Source: Desulforegula conservatrix Mb1Pa (GTDB lineage: Bacteria; Desulfobacterota; Desulfobacteria; Desulfobacterales; Desulforegulaceae). Taken from it: a stretch of 47,224 nucleotides of DNA. A program made the position numbers and the translations under genes. The notes beneath the pieces were generated by a model. The model searched no databases. It was given only the letters and a program-made list of their open reading frames with translations, and was not told the origin of the DNA. Below are positions 1-33,876 of this stretch, piece by piece. Location: NCBI RefSeq assembly GCF_000426225.1, contig NZ_AUEY01000026.1:1-47224 (forward strand), written 5' to 3'. Each line of letters starts with the position of its first letter. Within the stretch, counting starts at the first letter, position 1.

Positions 1-533
1 CCCTTGTCTGTCATCACCTTTGCAAGGTAGCTGTCACCAGCATCAACAAGCATTACATCCAGAGCCGAGTCATCAAATGGCCCTGTTCCGCAGCTTGTGG
101 AAAAATCAAACTGGTCAGGGCTGTTGATCGCAAGGCCTATGAAGGTTGTGCATTCATAAGCCTTTACCCAGTAAGGATCCTGATAATCAGGATTGTTGAA
201 GTTGAGTTCAACAAGTTTGAAAGCCTTGGCGTCGTATGGTCTGATGCCGATTACGGCCTGGGCTGAATAATCCTTTTCAGCCTCTTTCATTATATGATGG
301 CCTTCCACATTTTCGTCCAGATTATAAACCAGCATGGTTTCAGATGCCGGGAAAGCTATGGACTTTGGTGAAAGTCTTGTGTTTTTGTAACCCATGTCGG
401 GCTGTTCGCCAGCTGCAAGCCCTCTGAATACATGGAACTGCTTATCCTTGACCGGGCCCACCAGACGGTATGCACTCCGTGACTTATCCACTCCGGCAGC
501 CCAGGCTGACTTGTCTATCTTTATAATTTTCAT
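1..533 (-). CDS. HydB/AsrA-like iron-sulfur subunit, partial (C-terminus beyond the left edge)
   Basis: The reading frame is open from an ATG at 533 to the left edge, giving 177 residues of the N-terminal part. The residues RLSPKSIAFPASE and AVIGIRPYDAKAFKLVELNF match the family of sulfhydrogenase beta / anaerobic sulfite reductase A-like proteins, whose 4Fe-4S motifs lie further downstream and are not visible here. It starts 60 bases after the FrhB-type gene and is read in the same direction as hdrA and mvhD, so it is probably the fourth gene of that operon. In sulfate reducers such a protein, with an FAD/NAD-binding partner, forms part of the Flox module that links NAD(P)H to HdrA. The partner gene would lie beyond the left edge. 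The family call rests on the N-terminal half only. Confidence 0.75.
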   Translation of the reverse strand, partial: MKIIKIDKSAWAAGVDKSRSAYRLVGPVKDKQFHVFRGLAAGEQPDMGYKNTRLSPKSIAFPASETMLVYNLDENVEGHHIMKEAEKDYSAQAVIGIRPYDAKAFKLVELNFNNPDYQDPYWVKAYECTTFIGLAINSPDQFDFSTSCGTGPFDDSALDVMLVDAGDSYLAKVMTDK

Positions 534-593
534 GGCATGTCCCCTGAAAACGTTGAGTTCTTCTATATGATCAGACCACTATGGCCTGATCTG

Positions 594-1541
594 CTACCGG
601 ATAATGGTTTCTGGATCGTCGATCTTGAATGTATCCATTGGAGGACGCTGATCAAGCGACATTCCCGCTTCCCAACCAAAATTTTCAACACAGCCTTTTT
701 CAAGCTTTTTGGTGAAAAGCCTTACCTTTATATCCATAGGACATGCTGCTTCACATGCTCCGCAATCTGTACAGCGGCCAGCGCAGTGATATGCCCTGAG
801 GAAATGGTAAGTTCTGATATCAACCGGATCCGTGCCTTTTCCTACCCACTGTGGACGGGATTCGTCAACAAAACAGGTCGGGCAGTAGCATAGAGGACAC
901 GCATTCTTGCACGCGTAACATCTTGTGCATGGAGAAAGCAAGTCTTCGAAGAACTTCCACTTGTCATCAACTGACATGGCTTCAATCTTGTTTACAGATG
1001 CAAAACGATCTACAACCTGCTGCTCTTCCACAGGTTCAGCTATCATCTCATCGCAAAGAACAGGATTGCGGCGTATGCATGTTCTACAGTTATCCTGCAA
1101 AATGTCAGCTTTCTTAACTGATTTTTCAGCACCGTCACAAACAAACTTTATATCGTCGCCATTTTCAGTCATAGAAGTAATGTCACCGTCGAACATTGCC
1201 TTCACGGCTGTCTTATCAACCATGCCCTTGCATGGTACGCCGATTATATAAACCTGTTCACGCTTTATCTGGTTTTCAATTATATGTGTAACAAGGTTAC
1301 GGGAATCACAGCCCTTGGCTATGACTGCCATTGTGCCTTTTCTGCCCTTTGCGTAATTGGCAAGGTTAAGGCGGCAGTTGGAATCCCACACCAGTTTATC
1401 AACCGAATCCGCGTCACTCACGAGGCAAGGTTCTGTCATCATGGCAACACTTCCTTTTTTGAAGCCTATGACAACATCCACCTTTTTCTCTGCAAGAACA
1501 CGGCGTGCTGCTTCTTTAATTTTATCTATGTATCCGTTCAT
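594..1541 (-). CDS. FrhB/FdhB-type iron-sulfur flavoprotein with C-terminal ferredoxin-like clusters
   Basis: The product has 315 residues. Residues about 20-190 resemble the beta subunit of F420 hydrogenases and formate dehydrogenases (VAVIAKGCDSR and IIGVPCKGM type segments). The C-terminal third is Cys-rich: CTRCYACKNACPLCYCPTC, then CAGRCTDCGACEAACP, which suggests two 4Fe-4S clusters plus extra cysteines. It follows mvhD with 6 bases between the mvhD stop and this start, so the two are probably translated together. The expected role is cytoplasmic electron transfer in a Flox/Hdr-like complex between a pyridine nucleotide or formate module and MvhD-HdrA. The true electron donor cannot be read from this gene alone. 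F420 use is not implied, since this family has many F420-independent members. Confidence 0.82.
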   Translation of the reverse strand: MNGYIDKIKEAARRVLAEKKVDVVIGFKKGSVAMMTEPCLVSDADSVDKLVWDSNCRLNLANYAKGRKGTMAVIAKGCDSRNLVTHIIENQIKREQVYIIGVPCKGMVDKTAVKAMFDGDITSMTENGDDIKFVCDGAEKSVKKADILQDNCRTCIRRNPVLCDEMIAEPVEEQQVVDRFASVNKIEAMSVDDKWKFFEDLLSPCTRCYACKNACPLCYCPTCFVDESRPQWVGKGTDPVDIRTYHFLRAYHCAGRCTDCGACEAACPMDIKVRLFTKKLEKGCVENFGWEAGMSLDQRPPMDTFKIDDPETIIR

Positions 1542-1547
1542 AGTCTT

Positions 1548-1973
1548 TTACCTTAGCTGGTCTTTTACAAAACGTTTATTGGGTCCAACAGCTTTAACCG
1601 CCTCTGTCACCTGCTTGACTACATCCACAAATTTTGTGGATTCTGCAGAGGAAATCCACGAGTAATGGAGGCGGCCAGGCTCGATGCCCATATATTCAGC
1701 CAGTTCATTAAAGAGTACAAACTTTCTTCTTGCGTAGTAATTACCTTCCAGGTAATGGCAGTCTCCCGGATGTCAGCCAGAGACCCATACCGCGTCGGCG
1801 CCTTCCTTAAGTGCTGAGAGGAAGAACTTAGGACTCATACGGCCAGTACAGGGTATGCGTATTACACGTATGTTTGCCGGATACTGAAACCGGCTAACGC
1901 CTGCAAGGTCAGCTGCACCGTAGCTGCACCAGTTGCAGAGAAAACTGACTATTTTAGGTTCCCAATCACCCAT
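1548..1973 (-). CDS. mvhD: MvhD/FloxD-type hydrogenase iron-sulfur subunit, selenoprotein (UGA at 1773-1775)
   Basis: An ATG at 1973, preceded by AAGGAG, opens a 141-codon frame if the TGA at 1775-1773 is read as selenocysteine (residue 67). Without readthrough the product would stop after 66 residues. Downstream of the TGA the frame continues with [16 protein letters not shown], the family's most conserved block, in which the residue before HPGDCHY is normally Cys. The N-terminus has [12 protein letters not shown] and IPCTGR, also conserved. A 6-bp hairpin with a 5-base loop begins 16 bases after the TGA. The 141-residue length fits MvhD. MvhD carries electrons from a hydrogenase, formate dehydrogenase or NADH module to HdrA. 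The gene lies 46 bases after hdrA. Sec at this site is known for VhuD/FrhD-like proteins of methanogens and some deltaproteobacteria. Confidence 0.93.
1740..1756 (-). promoter_or_regulatory. SECIS-like hairpin of mvhD
   Basis: On the minus strand ATTACC (1756-1751), loop TGGAA (1750-1746) and GGTAAT (1745-1740) form a perfect 6-bp stem. The stem begins 16 bases after the TGA and the loop 22 bases after it. The loop carries G at its second position. This spacing and loop composition match bacterial SECIS elements, which lie inside the coding region just after UGA and bind SelB. The stem also codes for conserved residues, so the pairing could partly be chance. Confidence 0.7.
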
Positions 1974-2019
1974 TATATTATCTCCTTAAAAATAATTCGC
2001 GTCCTTAAATACTGCTCGA

Positions 2020-5000
2020 TTAACCCTGGTTCAAGGCGAAGATCTGGGCAAAAATCTGGTCATTGTCAAAGCCGCTGTGGTGGATGGCACCGGAACGGCA
2101 TGATGAAACGCACAGACCGCAGCCTTTGCAAAGTACCGGATTGATTTTGGCCTTACCTGTATTTGGTCCTTCAGTAATGAAAGAAGGAGCAGAGTAAGGA
2201 CAAACACTCACGCATATTCCGCATGAACTGCAGTAATAAGGATCAACAGAGGCAACCTGACCGCTGGTGAAAATATTTTCTCTTGCAAGAAGAGTTATAG
2301 CTCTTGATGCCGCTGCCTGACCCTGGGCCACTGATTCATCTATAGGCTTAGGATAATGAGCCATACCGCAGAGGAATACGCCGTCTGTAGCAAATTCGGA
2401 AGGTCCGAGTTTTGCGTGACGTTCAACAAAGAAACCGTCCGCATTCATCGGAACTTTGAAGAACTGGGCGAGTTTTTCATCCTTGTAAGGTATTATAGCT
2501 GTGGCAAGGGAAACAAGATCAGCCCTGATGTCAAGTGGCAGACCAAGAACAGGATCGGTGATCAGAATGGATACCTTTCCTTCCTTGATGCTTACCTTTG
2601 GTTTGCTTTCAAGGTCGTAACGGATGAATATGATTCCTGCATCGCGTGCTTCACGGTACAAATACTCACGTTCACCATATGCACGGATATCACGGTATAG
2701 AACATAAACAGTCTTTTCCGGATCTCGGTGCTTCAGTTCAAGGGCGTTGTCTATGCTGTGTGTGCAGCAAAGACGCGAGCAATATGGTCTTTCAGGCTCC
2801 CTTGAGCCAACGCACTGGATAAACACAGCTGTTTCAACGTCATTCAGAGAAGGATCATTTTTAATGAACTTCTCATCAAGCTCCTGGCTTGTGATTATAC
2901 GGGGATCCTTGCCGAACATGTATTCGGTGGGAGCAAGAGGAGCAGCGCCTGTTGCCATGACGGCAACGCCATGGTCAAGCATCTTCTCACCAGAGGCTGA
3001 AACAAGCTTGGTCTTGAAATTTCCGACAAAACCGTCAACATTGTCTATACTGGTATTCAGATGGACGTGTATCTTTGGATTGTCATTTACTTCCTTGACC
3101 ATTGCAGCAAGGTTGGCCTGGATGTCTTCGCCTTTCGGAGTCTTGAACAGACGGAGAGCCTGGCCACCAAGAGTTTCATTTCTTTCAACTATATGAGCTT
3201 CGTAACCTTGAGTAGAAAGAGCTTTTGCAGCTGTCATTCCGGCTATACCACCGCCGATTACAAGAGCCACCTGATTTACCTGGAGCTGGGCTTCTTCAAG
3301 AGGCTGGGAAAGAGCAACCTTGGAAACAGCCATTCTAAGGAGGTCTTTTGCCTTTTCTGTGGCAGCTTCAGGAGTTTCTTTGTGAACCCAGGATCCGTGA
3401 TTACGGATATTGCACATCTCAAAGAGATATTTGTTCAGACCGGCAGCAAGCAGGGTTTCCTGGAAAAGAGGCTCATGTGTCTTAGGAGTACAGGCTGCAA
3501 CAACAACCCTGTTAAGCCCCTGTTCCTTGATAATCTGAGCAATCTTGTCCTGGGAGTCCTGGGAGCATGAGAACATGTTGTTAAAGGAGAACTCGACATA
3601 TGGAAGAGACTTGGCATATTCGGTAAGGGTTGCAACATCTATTACACCCGCAATGTTTGTACCGCAACTGCATACAAATACACCGATTTTAGGTCTGTCG
3701 CCTTTTACATTGACCTGGGGGACAGCATCCTCGGTTTTTGTGAGTGTTCCGCGGGCAGATACAAGCGGTTCTCCGGCAGCAGCTGCTGCGGCACTCGCGT
3801 CGATCATAGCCTGAGGAATATCTTTTGGTCCCTGGAAAGCACCGCAAACAAAAACGCCTGGCTTTGAAGTCGCAACAGGAGTGAAAGAACCTGTAGCAGC
3901 AAATCTGCCCTTGGTAAGTTCAACGCCTAACTTGTTAGCAAGCTCAACAGTCTTGGGATCGGTTTCAAGGCCGATGGAGAGAACAATCATGTTGAATACT
4001 TCGGTCTTGAGTTCTCCGCTTTCAGTTACATAGCGAACTTCAAGATCATCGGTTTCAGGAACAGGATTGATGGTGTGGACACGGCTTCTTACGAAACGGA
4101 CGCCTTTTTTCTCTGCATCATTATAATAACGCTCGAAATCCTTGCCGTGGGTACGCATGTCCATAAAGAAAATCGCGCAGTCAAGATCATCACCATTATG
4201 CTCTTTGGCAATAGCGGCTTCCTTGATGGCGTACATACAGCATACGGATGAGCAATAACCATTATTGCAGCGGTTCATATCGCGGGAACCGATACACTGG
4301 AAAAAGGCTATTTTTTTAGGTTCTTCGTGATCTTTAGATCTTCTGACAAGATGTCCCATGGTGGGGCCAGAAGCAGAAAGAATACGCTCAAATTCCAGAG
4401 AAGTAATTACATTCGGGAATTTTGTGTACTGATACGTATCGAAAACTGAAGGATCAAAAGGCTTGAAGCCAGGAGCAAGAACAACAGAACCTACATTTAT
4501 GACTTCTGTCTTTTCCTTGTCATCATAAAGAATGGCGCCGGTTGGGCAGATCTTTTCGCAAAGACCGCATTTGCCCTTTGTAATCTTGATACACTGAGTG
4601 CCGTCAATAGCATACTTTAATGGCACCGCCTGATCATACTCTACATAAATGGCTTTTCTGGTTTTAAGACCTGCATTATATGTATCAGTTACCTTTTTGG
4701 GGCATTTTTCAGTACATGCTCCGCAGGCGATACATTTGTCAGGATCTACGTATCTTGGTTTCTGGAGAATTTCCACCTGGAAATTCCCTTCTTCACCGGT
4801 TACGTTTACTACTTCACTAAGTGTTTTAAGCTCGATGTTTAAATGCCGGCCGACCTCGACCAGTTTGGGTGAGATAATTCACATCGCGCAGTCGTTGGTT
4901 GGGAAGGTCTTGTCCAGCTGTGACATGACGCCACCGATGGACGGGCCTTTTTCGACCAGGTAAACATAATACCCGGAGTCGGCGAGATCCAGTGCAGTTT

Positions 5001-5058
5001 GCATGCCTGCAATACCACCACCAATGACCATTGCGGATCCGATTACATCCTTTGCCAT
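2020..5058 (-). CDS. hdrA: HdrA-like electron-bifurcating flavoprotein, selenoprotein (UGA at 4879-4881)
   Basis: With the TGA at 4881-4879 read as selenocysteine the protein has 1012 residues, Sec being residue 60. The chosen ATG at 5058 has a strong AGGAGAAGG site upstream; an ATG at 5097 is possible but has a poorer context. The order of domains is: FAD-binding GGGIAGM near residue 15; the block DCAM-Sec-IISPKLVEVGR, where HdrA proteins have Cys; two 4Fe-4S motifs (CIACGACTEKCP, CGLCEKICP); a second complete HdrA module starting at GVFVCSCGTNIAG with its own GGGIAGM; and a C-terminal ferredoxin pair (CSSCGICVSVCP, CKGCGLCVSSC). This is the long double-module form of HdrA seen in sulfate reducers. 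It is expected to accept electrons from MvhD and split them between a low-potential ferredoxin and a high-potential acceptor. No hdrB or hdrC is visible. Automatic annotation would start it at 4776 and lose the first 94 residues. Confidence 0.93.
4846..4863 (-). promoter_or_regulatory. SECIS-like hairpin of hdrA
   Basis: On the minus strand CTGGTC (4863-4858), loop GAGGTC (4857-4852) and GGCCGG (4851-4846) form a 6-bp stem with two G-U pairs. The stem starts 15 bases after the TGA and the loop 21 bases after it. The loop begins with G. The geometry is almost the same as for the mvhD hairpin, which supports both. Confidence 0.7.
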
Positions 5059-5150
5059 GGTTTCCTTCTCCTGTTCAAAACGTTTCACCACCCCCATCAG
5101 GAAGCGGCTTATTAATAAAACTGATACAAATAACTGATTTACAAAACCGA

Positions 5151-5166
5151 GGCGGCTCTAACCGCC
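5151..5166 (-). other. Leader hairpin upstream of hdrA
   Basis: GGCGG and CCGCC pair around a 6-base loop. On the minus strand the stem is followed, after TCGG, by TTTTG, so it has weak attenuator character. It lies about 93 bases before the hdrA start. It could equally be a stray palindrome. Confidence 0.3.
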
Positions 5167-5197
5167 ATATTTCCGAATCTTTTTTATGCAGGTACTT

Positions 5198-5226
5198 TCA
5201 TTAACCAGATAAATTATTATTGTCAA
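5198..5226 (-). promoter_or_regulatory. Possible sigma-70 promoter for the hdrA operon
   Basis: A consensus TTGACA lies at 5226-5221 on the minus strand. The best -10 candidates (GTTAAT, TTAATG) begin 15-16 bases further on and match TATAAT only partly. The site is 140-170 bases before the hdrA ATG, with the leader hairpin in between. Confidence 0.3.
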
Positions 5227-5323
5227 TATATTTGTCCCTCGATATTTAAGGCAAAACGCATTAAATTGTGGTATTTAGAAAGACCTTACACCTTAACTTG
5301 ATTCAAGCCGATAATGGAAACAT

Positions 5324-6262
5324 ATGGAAACTTCCAAATTTACTACCTCGAAGCAAAAAGTAGTCATAATATGTGGTCCGACAGGAGTTGGTAAAACCGC
5401 ATTTGCTATAAAACTCGCACTGAAATTCGGAGCTGAAATCATCAACTCGGATTCCATGCAGATATATAAACACATGGATATTGGCACTGCAAAACCAACA
5501 CCCGAAGAGCTTTCACTGGTCCCCCATTCACTGATAGATATAGTAACCCCTGACCAGCCTTTTGATGCTGCAATGTTTTCAAACAGAGCCGCACAAGAAG
5601 AAGAGAGATTGAGAAATTTAGGGAAAAATGTCTTTATGGTCGGCGGCACAGGACTCTACATAAGAGCTTTCCTAAACGGGCTTTTCAGGTCAGAACCTGC
5701 TGAAGACATAGTACTCGAAAAACTAAGAGCAGAAGCAGAAACCGTTGGTTCTGCAATTCTTCATGAAAGACTTAAAAATATAGATCAGCCAGCATCTGAA
5801 AAAATACATCCCAATGACACGTTCAGGATAATACGAGCACTTGAACATCATGAAAAAACAGGCCGCCCAATTTCTGAATCATGGGAAGACCACGGATTCA
5901 GGGAAAGCAGATACGACTACCTAAAAATTTGCCTCGGAATTGACAGAGCGGACCTTTATGAGAGAATAAACAGGCGCGTAGAGATCATGATTCAGGAAGG
6001 GCTCCCGGATGAAGTGAAAAAACTTCTTGAAATGGGCTATAGAAGAGATCTTAAACCCATGAAATCAATTGGATACAGACATATGTGTGAATTCCTGGCC
6101 GGGGAAGTCGATTTTGATAAAAGTATAGAGATCCTGAAACAGGACACGAGACGTTATGCCAAAAGGCAACTTACGTGGTTCAGACACGAGCCCAACGCAA
6201 TCTGGCTTGCCCCTAAAGAAATTGAAAAGGCATCGGAGCTGATTTCAAAATTTCTCAATTGA
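5324..6262 (+). CDS. miaA: tRNA dimethylallyltransferase
   Basis: The 312-residue protein has the P-loop GPTGVGKT at residues 18-25, then INSDSMQIYKHMDIGTAKPT, the substrate-binding signature of MiaA, GGTGLYIRAF, and the C-terminal RRYAKRQLTWFRHE that contacts the tRNA anticodon stem. It transfers a dimethylallyl group to N6 of A37 in tRNAs reading codons that start with U. Its length is normal for the family. It is divergent from the hdrA operon and has its own leader of about 260 bases shared with it. The Shine-Dalgarno sequence is weak (ATGGAAAC). The role is certain; regulation cannot be read from the sequence. Confidence 0.96.
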   Translation: METSKFTTSKQKVVIICGPTGVGKTAFAIKLALKFGAEIINSDSMQIYKHMDIGTAKPTPEELSLVPHSLIDIVTPDQPFDAAMFSNRAAQEEERLRNLGKNVFMVGGTGLYIRAFLNGLFRSEPAEDIVLEKLRAEAETVGSAILHERLKNIDQPASEKIHPNDTFRIIRALEHHEKTGRPISESWEDHGFRESRYDYLKICLGIDRADLYERINRRVEIMIQEGLPDEVKKLLEMGYRRDLKPMKSIGYRHMCEFLAGEVDFDKSIEILKQDTRRYAKRQLTWFRHEPNAIWLAPKEIEKASELISKFLN

Positions 6263-6357
6263 TTAAATGGCTATGCACTATTTTCAGTATGATTGTCTGG
6301 TCTGAAAAAAGTGATTTACAAAAATATCGAAAGTTTTCCAAGCATCTGACATAATCA

Positions 6358-7967: not shown

Positions 7968-8101
7968 GGATGAACTCGCAAAAACACACAAAAAGTCATC
8001 AGCGTCATGCCGGACTTGATCCGGCATCCAGTGTTTTCAGTCATTTCTGGATTCCGGCCTGCGCCGGAATGACGGAAATCGGACTTTTTGCTACGTTGCC
8101 A
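7968..8101 (+). repeat. 135-bp palindromic element, copy 2
   Basis: Both ends are slightly degenerate (GGATGAACTCGC at left, inverted TGGCAACGTAGC at right). Both inner hairpins, ATGCCGGA...TCCGGCAT and ATTCCGG...CCGGAAT, are perfect. It lies between the phosphofructokinase start and the kdsD stop, both on the minus strand. Confidence 0.85.
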
Positions 8102-9927: not shown

Positions 9928-11649
9928 CTATTTGTTTTTATAAAAAGGCAAAATTACGTGAAAAATAGTACCTGCACCAGGAACGCTGTTGACCTTGATT
10001 TCTCCTCCAAGATTCGTAACTATACCATAGCATATGGATAGTCCGAGTCCTGTCCCCTTGCCTGCCGGCTTTGTCGTAAAAAAAGGATCATATATCTTAA
10101 ATATATTATCGGAAGAAATACCTTCACCTGTATCAGATATCCTGACGTACCCCATGTCCTTATCTGTTCTGCCTATTTCAATCCCGAGCTGGCCGCCTTT
10201 TATCTCCATGGCGTCCAGAGCATTGTAAATAAGATTCATGAAAACCTGATGAAGTTCTGTGGACGAAGCTGCGATTGGAGGCAGGTCAGGGTCAGGGTTG
10301 AAAGAAATAGTAACTCCTGACTGTAAGGCCTTTGAACCTGTAAGATCAAGCATTTCCCTGATCAGGGCATTAATATCAACAGCTTCGATCTTGTGATCAG
10401 GTTTCCTTGCAAAGGTCAGGAGCTTATGGGTGATATTTCTGCATCTAATGCCCTGGCTCCTTATCTGTGCGACGCTCCTTGAAATTTCCTCAGTATTTGC
10501 GTCTTTTTCGTGAATATCTTCGAGAATATCCTGAATCCAACCTGCTTCCTCAACCATGATTGCCAAAGGATTATTAATTTCATGGGCAATACCTGCGGCC
10601 ATCTCACCAAGGGAGCTCAATTTCCCTGCCTCGATTACCTTGTCGTTCAACTCTTCCTTTTCAGTTTCAAGCCTGTCTATCTGGGTGATAATTTTGCTTG
10701 AAATAAACAAACCTGCAATTACGACAAATGCGCTCACAAGGGCAAGAACCATGAGAAGGGTTCTCCTTGCTGCAATTAAGCTTTCAAGAACTTCATCCCT
10801 TTTCTGCTGAAAAACAAGTATCCAGTCACCTTCTTTAAGTATGGACATGGAATAGATTGTTCTATCAATTTCAAATGTTACTGGTTTTTTGCCCGGGGAT
10901 AAATGCTTTGCATATTTTTCAGCATAAGAGGCAAGCAATTTGCCGTCGCTCAAATCAGCTTTTTCAGGTTTGAACTGGAAGGCTCCGGCTTTGTTTATTA
11001 TGCAGACAGACCCGCTGTTGCCGGTTTTAAGATCATTCACCAGTCCTGAAAGACCTGAAAAATCCACGGAGGATTTTAATATGAAATGTTCCTCACCTGC
11101 ATCCACTTTAATTGCGACGACAAAAAATGGTTCACCACTTGAATTAACGGACACGTCGCTTATATAGGTATCCCTTGTGATTGCGTTTACAAACCAGTCT
11201 TCACCTGATGGCGGGGTTTCTTTTCCGTCTTCTTTAAGTAAAGCGAAATTTCTGTAATTCCCTCTTATGTCAACAATTCCAAGATCAAGATAAATATTGC
11301 CGTAAACATTTCTGAGGGCATCGAGCTGGTGTTTGAGAAAGCTCTTCTCCATCATTTTTTCTGCATTGTTATCAAGAAAAAGCCTGAGCACCGCCAGTCT
11401 TTCAGAAAGAAAACTGTCTATTTTTCTGGTGTCTTTATAAACCATGTCCTCGATCTGGCCATAAGCTACCTTTTTAAATGATGATTCAAGATGATAGCTC
11501 ATCACGCCGAATACTATGATTATAGGCACTATGGACGCAAGTATGATTCCCAGATGGATAGTCCTGTCCAGAGTTCTTCGTACAGTAGTACCACTGGTTA
11601 GAATCAAATTATCTTTCCTGTTACCGCCGCTTGAGTCAGATCCAGCCAT
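9928..11649 (-). CDS. Membrane sensor histidine kinase with periplasmic Cache-type domain
   Basis: The protein has 573 residues. Transmembrane helices are at about 32-50 and 297-318, with a sensor region of 245 residues between them of dCache type (DWFVNAITRDTYISDV, then EPFFVVAIKV). A short coiled coil leads to HisKA with the phosphorylated His356 in GEMAAGIAHEINNPLAIM. The ATPase domain has NLIYNALDAM, DTGEGIS and [15 protein letters not shown]. Such kinases sense small ligands outside the cell; the ligand is not predictable. The partner was probably the response regulator downstream, which is broken here, so the kinase may now act on another regulator or on none. Divergent from the TetR gene. 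Confidence 0.93.
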   Translation of the reverse strand: MAGSDSSGGNRKDNLILTSGTTVRRTLDRTIHLGIILASIVPIIIVFGVMSYHLESSFKKVAYGQIEDMVYKDTRKIDSFLSERLAVLRLFLDNNAEKMMEKSFLKHQLDALRNVYGNIYLDLGIVDIRGNYRNFALLKEDGKETPPSGEDWFVNAITRDTYISDVSVNSSGEPFFVVAIKVDAGEEHFILKSSVDFSGLSGLVNDLKTGNSGSVCIINKAGAFQFKPEKADLSDGKLLASYAEKYAKHLSPGKKPVTFEIDRTIYSMSILKEGDWILVFQQKRDEVLESLIAARRTLLMVLALVSAFVVIAGLFISSKIITQIDRLETEKEELNDKVIEAGKLSSLGEMAAGIAHEINNPLAIMVEEAGWIQDILEDIHEKDANTEEISRSVAQIRSQGIRCRNITHKLLTFARKPDHKIEAVDINALIREMLDLTGSKALQSGVTISFNPDPDLPPIAASSTELHQVFMNLIYNALDAMEIKGGQLGIEIGRTDKDMGYVRISDTGEGISSDNIFKIYDPFFTTKPAGKGTGLGLSICYGIVTNLGGEIKVNSVPGAGTIFHVILPFYKNK

Positions 11650-11803
11650 AATTGCGTCAGAATCTCCTTTTAGATGTTATTATTGAAACACATATTATTA
11701 ACATACTACTTGATTTAATCTAATGTTTTTATTATTAGCGGTATTATTCAATCTCAAAAAACTGAACGGCTATTAATTTTTTTAACCAGGTCGGGTCATA
11801 AAA

Positions 11804-12427
11804 ATGATTTATTTAGAAAAAACCCCTGTAATTACTAAGAAAAATGCTCTTTCCGAAAAAAACAAACTACGTCTTTATCCTGTTGTGCTTGATCTTTTTT
11901 CAAAAAAGGATTTTCATCAGGTGAATATCCGTGAAATCTACAAACTTTCAGGGCTTAGCCCGAGTACCATCTACAGATATTTTACATCAAAAGAAGATCT
12001 GCTGTTCACAATTCTTGACGAAAAAATCATAGAAATCAGGGAACTCATCAAGGAACACATAAGAGGCTTGGACAGCACAAAGGAAATATTCAGAAAGGTT
12101 TTTTGGGTCACGCTAAATTATTACGATAATAATCCAGGAGTTGCCATAACAGCCTTTATTACGGTTCCAATGCGGGCATGGATGAGGGAAGACACCTACA
12201 CGACATCAGAAATACTTGATATTGCAGATAAAATAATTGAACATGGCAAAGCAAAGGGTGAGATCGATCCTGCAATTACCCCCCAGATGACCAGGGATCT
12301 TTACTATATGTTTTCACACAGGCAGATTTATGTCTGGTATTTTCATCAGATGAAATGGAATCTTGTTGATACAATCCCACGATTTTTTGATCAGTTTTGG
12401 AAAATCATGGCTCCTAAAGGCTCGTAA
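11804..12427 (+). CDS. TetR-family transcriptional regulator
   Basis: The protein has 207 residues. The N-terminal DNA-binding domain shows the TetR helix-turn-helix, IREIYKLSGLSPSTIYRYFTSKEDLL, at residues about 46-71. The C-terminal ligand domain is all-helical and Trp/Tyr-rich, with no specific family signature visible. It is divergent from the sensor kinase, with 154 AT-rich bases between them that could hold its operator, but I could not pick out a clear palindrome there. The targets are unknown. A perfect 16-bp inverted repeat follows the gene (12483-12527). The start is the ATG at 11804, with AGG upstream. Confidence 0.93.
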   Translation: MIYLEKTPVITKKNALSEKNKLRLYPVVLDLFSKKDFHQVNIREIYKLSGLSPSTIYRYFTSKEDLLFTILDEKIIEIRELIKEHIRGLDSTKEIFRKVFWVTLNYYDNNPGVAITAFITVPMRAWMREDTYTTSEILDIADKIIEHGKAKGEIDPAITPQMTRDLYYMFSHRQIYVWYFHQMKWNLVDTIPRFFDQFWKIMAPKGS

Positions 12428-33743: not shown

Positions 33744-33876
33744 TGACAAGGTCGCAAAAAGTCCGATTATCGTCATTCCGGCGCAGGCCGGAATCCAGAA
33801 GTGGCTAAAATTAATGGATGCAGGATCAAGTCCGGCATGACGATTAAGCGATTTTTGACTTTTTGCGACTCCATCA
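33744..33876 (+). repeat. 135-bp palindromic element, copy 12
   Basis: One of the best copies: TGACAAGGTCGCAAAAAGTC and inverted TGATGGAGTCGCAAAAAGTC. The ATTCCGG hairpin is intact; the other is slightly mismatched. It begins 13 bases after the OmpA-like stop and precedes its terminator. Confidence 0.9.

Follow-up and report, generated by a model that had tools for sequence, protein, structure and literature searches.

A very probable selenocysteine in a fused double-module HdrA of Desulforegula conservatrix, and its neighbouring selenoprotein MvhD

Introduction

HdrA proteins with selenocysteine (Sec) are already known: the family, its CxxU motif and its occurrence in the bacterial group considered here have been on record since 2006-2009. 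Sec-HdrA was recorded in 2006 in Syntrophobacter, Syntrophus, Desulfotalea and several Firmicutes (PMC1794560), was described in 2009 together with Sec-containing mvhD in Desulfobacterium autotrophicum (PMC2702500), and has also been recorded in Desulfococcus (PMC5109826). The motif tabulated for HdrA is CxxU (PMC13188914, PMC9312934). An earlier, sequence-only reading of the locus described here took Sec-HdrA to be known from methanogens and a few bacteria, but these records show that such proteins are not rare in this group (PMC1794560, PMC2702500, PMC5109826).

We analysed a stretch of 47,224 nucleotides (the window) from D. conservatrix, whose genome assembly comprises 4.47 Mb in 178 contigs and is 96% complete. 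The first base of the window is also the first base of its contig (C26). Several described systems resemble the hdrA locus in this window. Desulfobacterium autotrophicum HRM2 is a sulfate reducer in which the Sec-hdrA genes (HdrA1/HdrA2 and HdrL1/HdrL3) are each followed by mvhD, four mvhD genes contain Sec and non-Sec paralogs are present in the same genome. At the level of gene comparison, its HdrA1 clusters with hydrogenase genes, whereas the genes in our window are FlxC- and FlxB-like and are followed by the contig end (PMC2702500). Syntrophobacter and other Deltaproteobacteria have the same selenoprotein family, and the Syntrophobacter operon includes a Sec-containing FrhD/MvhD subunit, but that operon also holds glpC, frhG and frhA (PMC1794560). 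In Desulfococcus multivorans, hdrA and mvhD both contain UGA plus a SECIS element, although the locus tags of the UGA-hdrA and the UGA-mvhD lie at separate places in the genome (PMC5109826). Methanococcus maripaludis has both a Sec-containing HdrA (HdrAU) and a Cys isoform in one genome, with Sec-VhuD in the same operon; however, the Sec pathway and SECIS are archaeal in this case, and the isoforms are switched by selenium supply (PMC11097638).

The domain arrangement recalls a further set of proteins, namely the fused or tandem HdrA of ANME and Moorella and the type II HdrA, in which each chain has two modules and the N-domain and Cys197 are complementary (PMC9012536, PMC12054007). There are three differences from our protein. 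In the ANME fusions HdrA3 and HdrA4 the half with the N-domain comes first, whereas here it is the half with residue 197. The published account speaks of Cys at position 197, where our protein has a probable Sec. Finally, type II archaeal HdrA reportedly retain the two bifurcation residues in each of their modules, whereas module 2 of our protein has mostly lost them (PMC9012536, PMC12054007).

Results

An in-frame TGA at a position otherwise occupied by Cys

The hdrA gene runs from 5058 to 2020 on the minus strand (1012 codons), and its sole in-frame stop is a TGA at 4881-4879, which is codon 60. This TGA is also the one stop that is read through in the frame from stop to stop (2020-5157, 1045 codons). 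The start is probably the ATG at 5058, which is preceded by the purine-rich ribosome site AGGAGAAGGAAACC, and the product would then have 1012 amino acids. The features of the gene are as follows.

2020..5058, minus strand: hdrA, fused double-module, 1012 aa, probable Sec at residue 60 (matches to 5odc and NCBIfam HdrA2)
4879..4881, minus strand: in-frame TGA, very probably read as selenocysteine, residue 60 (73 orthologous sites; alignment to Cys197 of 5odc HdrA)
4846..4863, minus strand: SECIS hairpin CUGGUCG-AGGU-CGGCCGG (identity among TGA orthologs; fold)

The residues around the TGA, DKTFPTNDCAM[U]IISPKLVEVGR, are in the same frame on both flanks, as the sequence-only reading had stated, and the CxxU motif of the product is CAMU. 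Under translation table 11, on the other hand, the listed hdrA frame opens only at 4776, downstream of the TGA, and 4776-2020 gives 918 aa.

To define orthologous sites, genome contigs were scanned and the best 80 of 131 loci were used, which come mostly from Desulfobacterales and other deltaproteobacteria. Together with the window's gene and its paralog, these loci yielded 73 sites of at least 145 bits; 12 of the 80 loci had no such site (L053, L059, L061, L062, L066, L079, L091, L097, L098, L100, L102 and L108), and three loci had two. Weaker matches, i.e., second modules, ferredoxin domains and more distant flavoproteins, were left out of the 73. One distant flavoprotein outside this count, on contig C17 of the same genome (L004/L005), has Cys at the site.

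The codon is TGA at 61 of the 73 sites and encodes Cys at the other 12 (10 TGC and 2 TGT), with no other codon observed. Loci with the TGA gene include L031 of Desulfoluna butyratoxydans and L078 of Desulfoluna spongiiphila. The in-frame UGA thus aligns with Cys of homologs, a hallmark of selenoprotein genes, which supports the original proposal of Sec at a conserved Cys of HdrA; the alignment that had been suggested as a check turned up no site without Cys or Sec among these 73. Of the 61 TGA genes, 31 have 945-970 open codons after the TGA and four (the HdrL type) have 1423; the remaining 26, mostly split forms and otherwise fragments, have fewer. In the split or short form (L055, L057, L067, L069, L104 and similar loci), the open frame with the Sec site stops 66-72 codons beyond the TGA, and some 3 kb further on there is another, large open frame that does not contain the site. 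The protein alignment and tree were built from 41 of the 73 genes, those (31 Sec, 10 Cys) in which 900-1000 codons stay open beyond the site, excluding five longer HdrL-type genes and 27 split or short ones, and the tree of these full-length proteins requires at least three changes between Sec and Cys. Window positions 1-6300 had no match in a plasmid collection.

A hairpin conserved at the RNA level

A hairpin with a 7-bp stem and an AGGU loop begins exactly 15 bases 3′ of the TGA (4863-4846), which is where a hairpin of SECIS geometry had been predicted, and a stem-loop with a G-containing loop immediately 3′ of the UGA is typical of selenoprotein genes. Rfam detected no RNA family in the window at gathering scores, so the case for a SECIS element is argued from codon invariance. 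Folded by itself, the 71-base stretch has an energy of -18.1 kcal/mol (z -1.8, with 9 of 200 shuffles as low), a moderate stability that we judged too weak to serve as SECIS evidence by itself.

The 18-mer hairpin is the same, even at synonymous positions, in 59 of the 61 TGA orthologs, whereas none of the 12 Cys orthologs has it. In the 60th TGA ortholog a single stem base is changed, which converts a U-G into a U-A pair at the cost of a Gly-to-Asp replacement, and in the remaining, distant TGA copy the hairpin is shifted by five bases and has GGUC in its loop. Among the 61 TGA genes, the six hairpin codons have a mean synonymous diversity of 0.01, compared with 0.49 for 23 flanking codons, the latter being codons with conserved amino acids. 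The corresponding values in the 12 Cys genes are 0.50 and 0.41, and these genes have 12 different 18-mers. Judged by codon diversity, selection acts on the RNA at the hairpin, and is seen only where the codon is TGA.

Selenocysteine machinery and other readings of the TGA

The sequence-only reading had made its proposal depend on selA, selB, selC and selD, and all four are present in the genome. SelA is on contig C13 (528 bits, cut-off 22.8), SelB on C97 (381 bits, cut-off 242), SelD on C8 (366 bits, cut-off 125) and tRNA-Sec (selC) on C31 (77.6 bits, gathering score 47), with anticodon TCA according to ARAGORN. The selD gene itself (C8:28714-29640) carries its own in-frame TGA, and SelD of this organism is probably also a selenoprotein. 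By the standard bacterial SelA/SelB/SelC/SelD route, the hdrA TGA would be decoded as Sec under the direction of the SECIS element within the coding sequence.

Two other readings of the codon have to be weighed against this. The TGA could be a true stop arising from a nonsense mutation, a pseudogene or a sequencing error, and table 11 does break the frame and leave the 918-aa downstream part only; but the TGA recurs at the same codon in most orthologs together with a frozen hairpin, long open frames follow it in the 31 and four genes mentioned above, and the remaining sites have Cys, the expected replacement for Sec, all of which makes a true stop very improbable. Equally improbable is that another amino acid is inserted, either under a changed genetic code or by a near-cognate Trp or Cys tRNA that reads through the codon. 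An intact protein would indeed result from read-through whatever the residue, but the neighbouring miaA gene ends with TGA (6260-6262), so TGA is also an ordinary stop in this genome and the code is not changed. Moreover, the genome encodes every Sec factor and a tRNA-Sec whose anticodon is TCA, relatives have Cys and not Trp, and the hairpin is fixed at synonymous sites. We regard decoding of the hdrA TGA as Sec as close to certain, and Sec decoding in a fused HdrA, the core of the best explanation, as highly probable.

Two complementary modules in one chain

The hdrA product matches the solved HdrA 5odc in three stretches (whole-sequence E 2.3e-184), its best NCBIfam match is HdrA2 (E 1.3e-282), and both its sequence family and the CxxU/CxxC motif are those of HdrA. 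Its scores are below the whole-protein cut-offs of the NCBIfam HdrA models, which are 762-777 positions long (NF040770, 939.6 versus 1100 bits; NF041778, 712.3 versus 1400; NF041891, 672.3 versus 1300), and we therefore file the protein as a fused HdrA relative and not as HdrA2 itself. The module matches agree with its earlier description as the long double-module bacterial form.

3754..5037, minus strand: module 1, FAD module with residue 60, without N-terminal HdrA domain, E224 and K279 kept; limits approximate (profile matches; E and K in 41/41)
4546..4734, minus strand: two-cluster ferredoxin domain inserted in module 1, Cys109 to Cys171 (domain match, alignment)
3235..3699, minus strand: internal HdrA N-terminal domain, invariant Cys463, Cys465, Cys498 and Cys523 (matches 5odc residues 2-156; four Cys in 41/41)
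2269..3276, minus strand: module 2, FAD module lacking both a Cys197 equivalent and the E/K pair; approximate limits (41-protein alignment)
2083..2247, minus strand: C-terminal two-cluster ferredoxin domain (5odc and domain matches, alignment)

The internal N-domain (residues about 454-608) precedes module 2. No such domain lies upstream of module 1: of the 41 full-length genes, 39 have no more than 122 open codons ahead of the site, too few for an N-domain, and in the other two the frame runs off the contig. Module 1 has Cys or Sec at residue 60 and an invariant Cys57 in all 41 proteins, whereas module 2 lacks Cys at the equivalent of residue 60 in all 41, this position being placed by eye from the GG motif. 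The bifurcation residues E356 and K409 correspond to E224 and K279 of module 1 (41/41; equivalence counted by eye on the 5odc alignment). At the equivalent positions, again assigned by eye, module 2 has Asp728 in 38/41 and the variable residue 770, which is Lys in 4/41. All three module 2 equivalents (of residue 60, E356 and K409) were located from neighbouring motifs, where automatic alignments were often gapped. E356 and K409 have been tied to flavin bifurcation (PMC12054007), and since only module 1 keeps the equivalents of both, it is likely to be the bifurcating module. An AlphaFold2 model of the product (29-sequence alignment, pLDDT 83, pTM 0.86), used as a fold check only, has HdrA chains as its best fold matches; it is least certain at the site (segment 49-57 with pLDDT below 50, block 51-60 with a mean of 45).

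Residue 60 as a candidate cluster ligand

Residue 60 aligns with Cys197 of HdrA in the solved complex 5odc (Methanothermococcus thermolithotrophicus), an assignment counted on the ungapped part of the 5odc alignment (22=145 in P0001 numbering, in which the site is 74). According to PMC9012536, where the source organism is given as M. wolfeii, Cys197 coordinates the N-terminal [4Fe-4S] cluster in the other HdrA subunit, this cluster lies on the route to ferredoxin (the low-potential branch), and in tandem or fused HdrA the N-domain and Cys197 are complementary between the halves. The ligand role proposed here is based on the alignment to Cys197 and on this one paper's reading of the structure.

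Since module 1 has Sec without an N-domain and module 2 follows an N-domain without having the Cys, Sec60 is a probable ligand. In dimeric HdrA, Cys197 of one subunit completes the N-domain [4Fe-4S] cluster of its partner; in the fusion, Sec60 of module 1 would complete the cluster of the internal N-domain before module 2, such that one chain would form its own heterodimer. On balance, we favour Sec60 as a [4Fe-4S] cluster ligand across this internal pseudo-dimer over a role as a flavin residue. Its likely partners around one cluster are Cys463, Cys465, Cys498 and Cys523; the N-domain has four invariant Cys, not three, so that the count does not settle which of them pair with residue 60. The earlier suggestion was that Sec, lying beside the FAD and cluster region, could alter the redox tuning of the flavin; a direct effect on the flavin is less likely than one on the cluster, given that the aligned Cys197 is a cluster ligand (PMC9012536). 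As the cluster is on the ferredoxin branch in the published scheme, selenium would tune this cluster, i.e., its potential, electron transfer or resistance to damage.

Sec60 might instead be a redox-active selenol, for example in a CxxU selenenylsulfide with Cys57 near the flavin as in thioredoxin reductases. The invariant Cys57 does provide a CxxU pair, module 1 also matches the folds of pyridine nucleotide-disulfide oxidoreductases and thioredoxin reductase, and a review places Sec in the active sites of selenoproteins (PMC13188914). However, in the solved complex the Cys197 with which residue 60 aligns coordinates a cluster (PMC9012536). Sec or Cys is missing from precisely the module that comes after the N-domain, a complementarity expected of a shared ligand. 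We consider the selenol reading unlikely, though clearly less so than the two alternative readings of the codon. With respect to the preferred role as a ligand, we know of no structure of a natural protein that shows Sec bound to an iron-sulfur cluster. A literature search for Sec-HdrA tied to the Cys197 cross-subunit ligand found no such statement, although the 2017 structure paper, outside the scope of the search, may contain one; in PMC9012536, the sole mention of selenocysteine concerns FdhA.

A second selenoprotein gene, mvhD

Downstream of hdrA is a second gene with an in-frame TGA.

1548..1973, minus strand: mvhD (flxD-like), probable second selenoprotein, 141 aa, WVSGUHPGDC (Pfam FlpD 169.8 bits, cut-off 22.3; NCBIfam VhuD 136.2 bits, below the cut-off of 215)
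1773..1775, minus strand: in-frame TGA of mvhD, Sec67 (frame reading, locus comparison)
1740..1757, minus strand: probable SECIS of mvhD, CATTACCTGGAAGGTAAT (near-total codon invariance)

The mvhD copies across loci comprise 58 with TGA and 19 with Cys; at codons +6 to +11 the TGA copies show almost no variation, but the Cys copies are variable. This invariance is the only evidence used, since some copies, among them that of the window, have a minimum-energy fold other than the hairpin. Pairing was counted in the 46 hdrA genes whose frame continues for 900 codons or more past the site; the 27 shorter genes had no mvhD in reach. Where mvhD was found, Sec-hdrA is followed by Sec-mvhD in 30 of 31 cases and Cys-hdrA by Cys-mvhD in 7 of 7, and for four more genes of either kind no mvhD was found. 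The exception, L099, combines a Sec-HdrA with a distant Cys-MvhD. Joint switching between Sec and Cys could be followed in three independent contrasts, of which 2.5 agree on average and none is opposed (sign test p 0.25); with only three contrasts, we claim no significance. The separate locus tags in Desulfococcus multivorans count against strict pairing, since its UGA-mvhD is far from the UGA-hdrA, which adjoins another mvhD (PMC5109826). The D. conservatrix genome itself has a Cys hdrA-mvhD pair on contig C89 besides the Sec pair on C26, and the two pairs are 64% (hdrA) and 68% (mvhD) identical.

Genes downstream of mvhD

Two further genes lie between mvhD and the contig end; their Flx names, given by order and domains, are our assumption.

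594..1541, minus strand: 4Fe-4S protein, FlxC-like by position (domain match; 61% identical to the Desulfoluna counterpart)
3..533, minus strand: sulfhydrogenase-beta-like protein, FlxB-like, cut by the contig end (NCBIfam ShyB, E 9.2e-10, 38 bits, far below the cut-off of 690; fragment)

The window therefore has flxD-, flxC- and partial flxB-like genes beside hdrA, and any flxA-like gene would lie past the contig end. In Desulfoluna butyratoxydans (L031), the shared gene order continues with a FAD/NAD-binding protein and then a DsrC-family protein (11564-11884 in that locus). Downstream genes were compared in 32 of the 41 full-length loci, those with at least 3.5 kb of downstream sequence. 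A FAD/NAD-binding (flxA-like) gene is present in 23 of them, two of the 23 having Cys-hdrA, and a DsrC gene in 15, which are L031 (a query) and 14 other loci of the Sec-hdrA cluster, all with Sec-hdrA. This neighbourhood suggests DsrC as a sulfur-carrier partner for this HdrA. No HdrB or HdrC is among the proteins scanned beside hdrA in the window, whose contig ends at base 1, or in L031. The setting is likely to be an NADH-linked HdrA complex, possibly serving DsrC.

The divergent miaA gene and an interspersed repeat

On the other side of hdrA, miaA (5324-6262, plus strand) lies head-to-head with it, its start approximately 265 bases upstream of the Sec-hdrA gene, and a genome search found only this one miaA. 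MiaA is the tRNA A37 dimethylallyltransferase, which acts on UNN-reading tRNAs, perhaps including tRNA-Sec. In loci whose sequence reaches 1 kb or more upstream (which leaves out 15 Sec genes), and without correction for shared descent, a divergent miaA is upstream of 20 of 46 Sec-hdrA genes, within 600 bases in 16, versus none of 12 Cys-hdrA genes. In a search that started from miaA and covered 117 genomes, a divergent hdrA lies within about 1.5 kb in 7 of the 30 best loci (our own included), with a stop at the Sec position in 7/7; the two sets may share species. It is possible that tRNA-Sec modification is linked to UGA recoding.

An interspersed repeat close to GTCATGCCGGACTTGATCCGGCATC occurs at 12 places in the window, from 6477 to 35417 (e.g., 8004-8028 and 33817-33841). 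These 12 matches have at most three mismatches, compared with none in 100 shuffles, and the first two copies sit between listed genes.

Discussion

The fused HdrA, probably electron-bifurcating, would work with MvhD, the second selenoprotein, and the two may belong to an NADH-linked Flx-HdrA complex in a sulfate reducer. Complexes of this kind can escape annotation under table 11, which cuts 59 residues from the start of the hdrA product and interrupts mvhD; the same point has been made for methanogen hdrA (PMC12054007). The matched Sec and Cys hdrA-mvhD modules in one genome make a direct test of the role of Sec possible.

The new detail is that the Sec probably holds an iron-sulfur cluster between two protein halves. 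More tentatively, we propose the combination of two ideas: that Sec60 is a natural selenolate [4Fe-4S] ligand across the pseudo-dimer of a fused HdrA, and that HdrA and the MvhD that feeds it electrons tend either both to use selenium or both to do without it. If this is true, the ferredoxin branch of bifurcation would be tuned by selenium in a genome that also keeps a Cys module.
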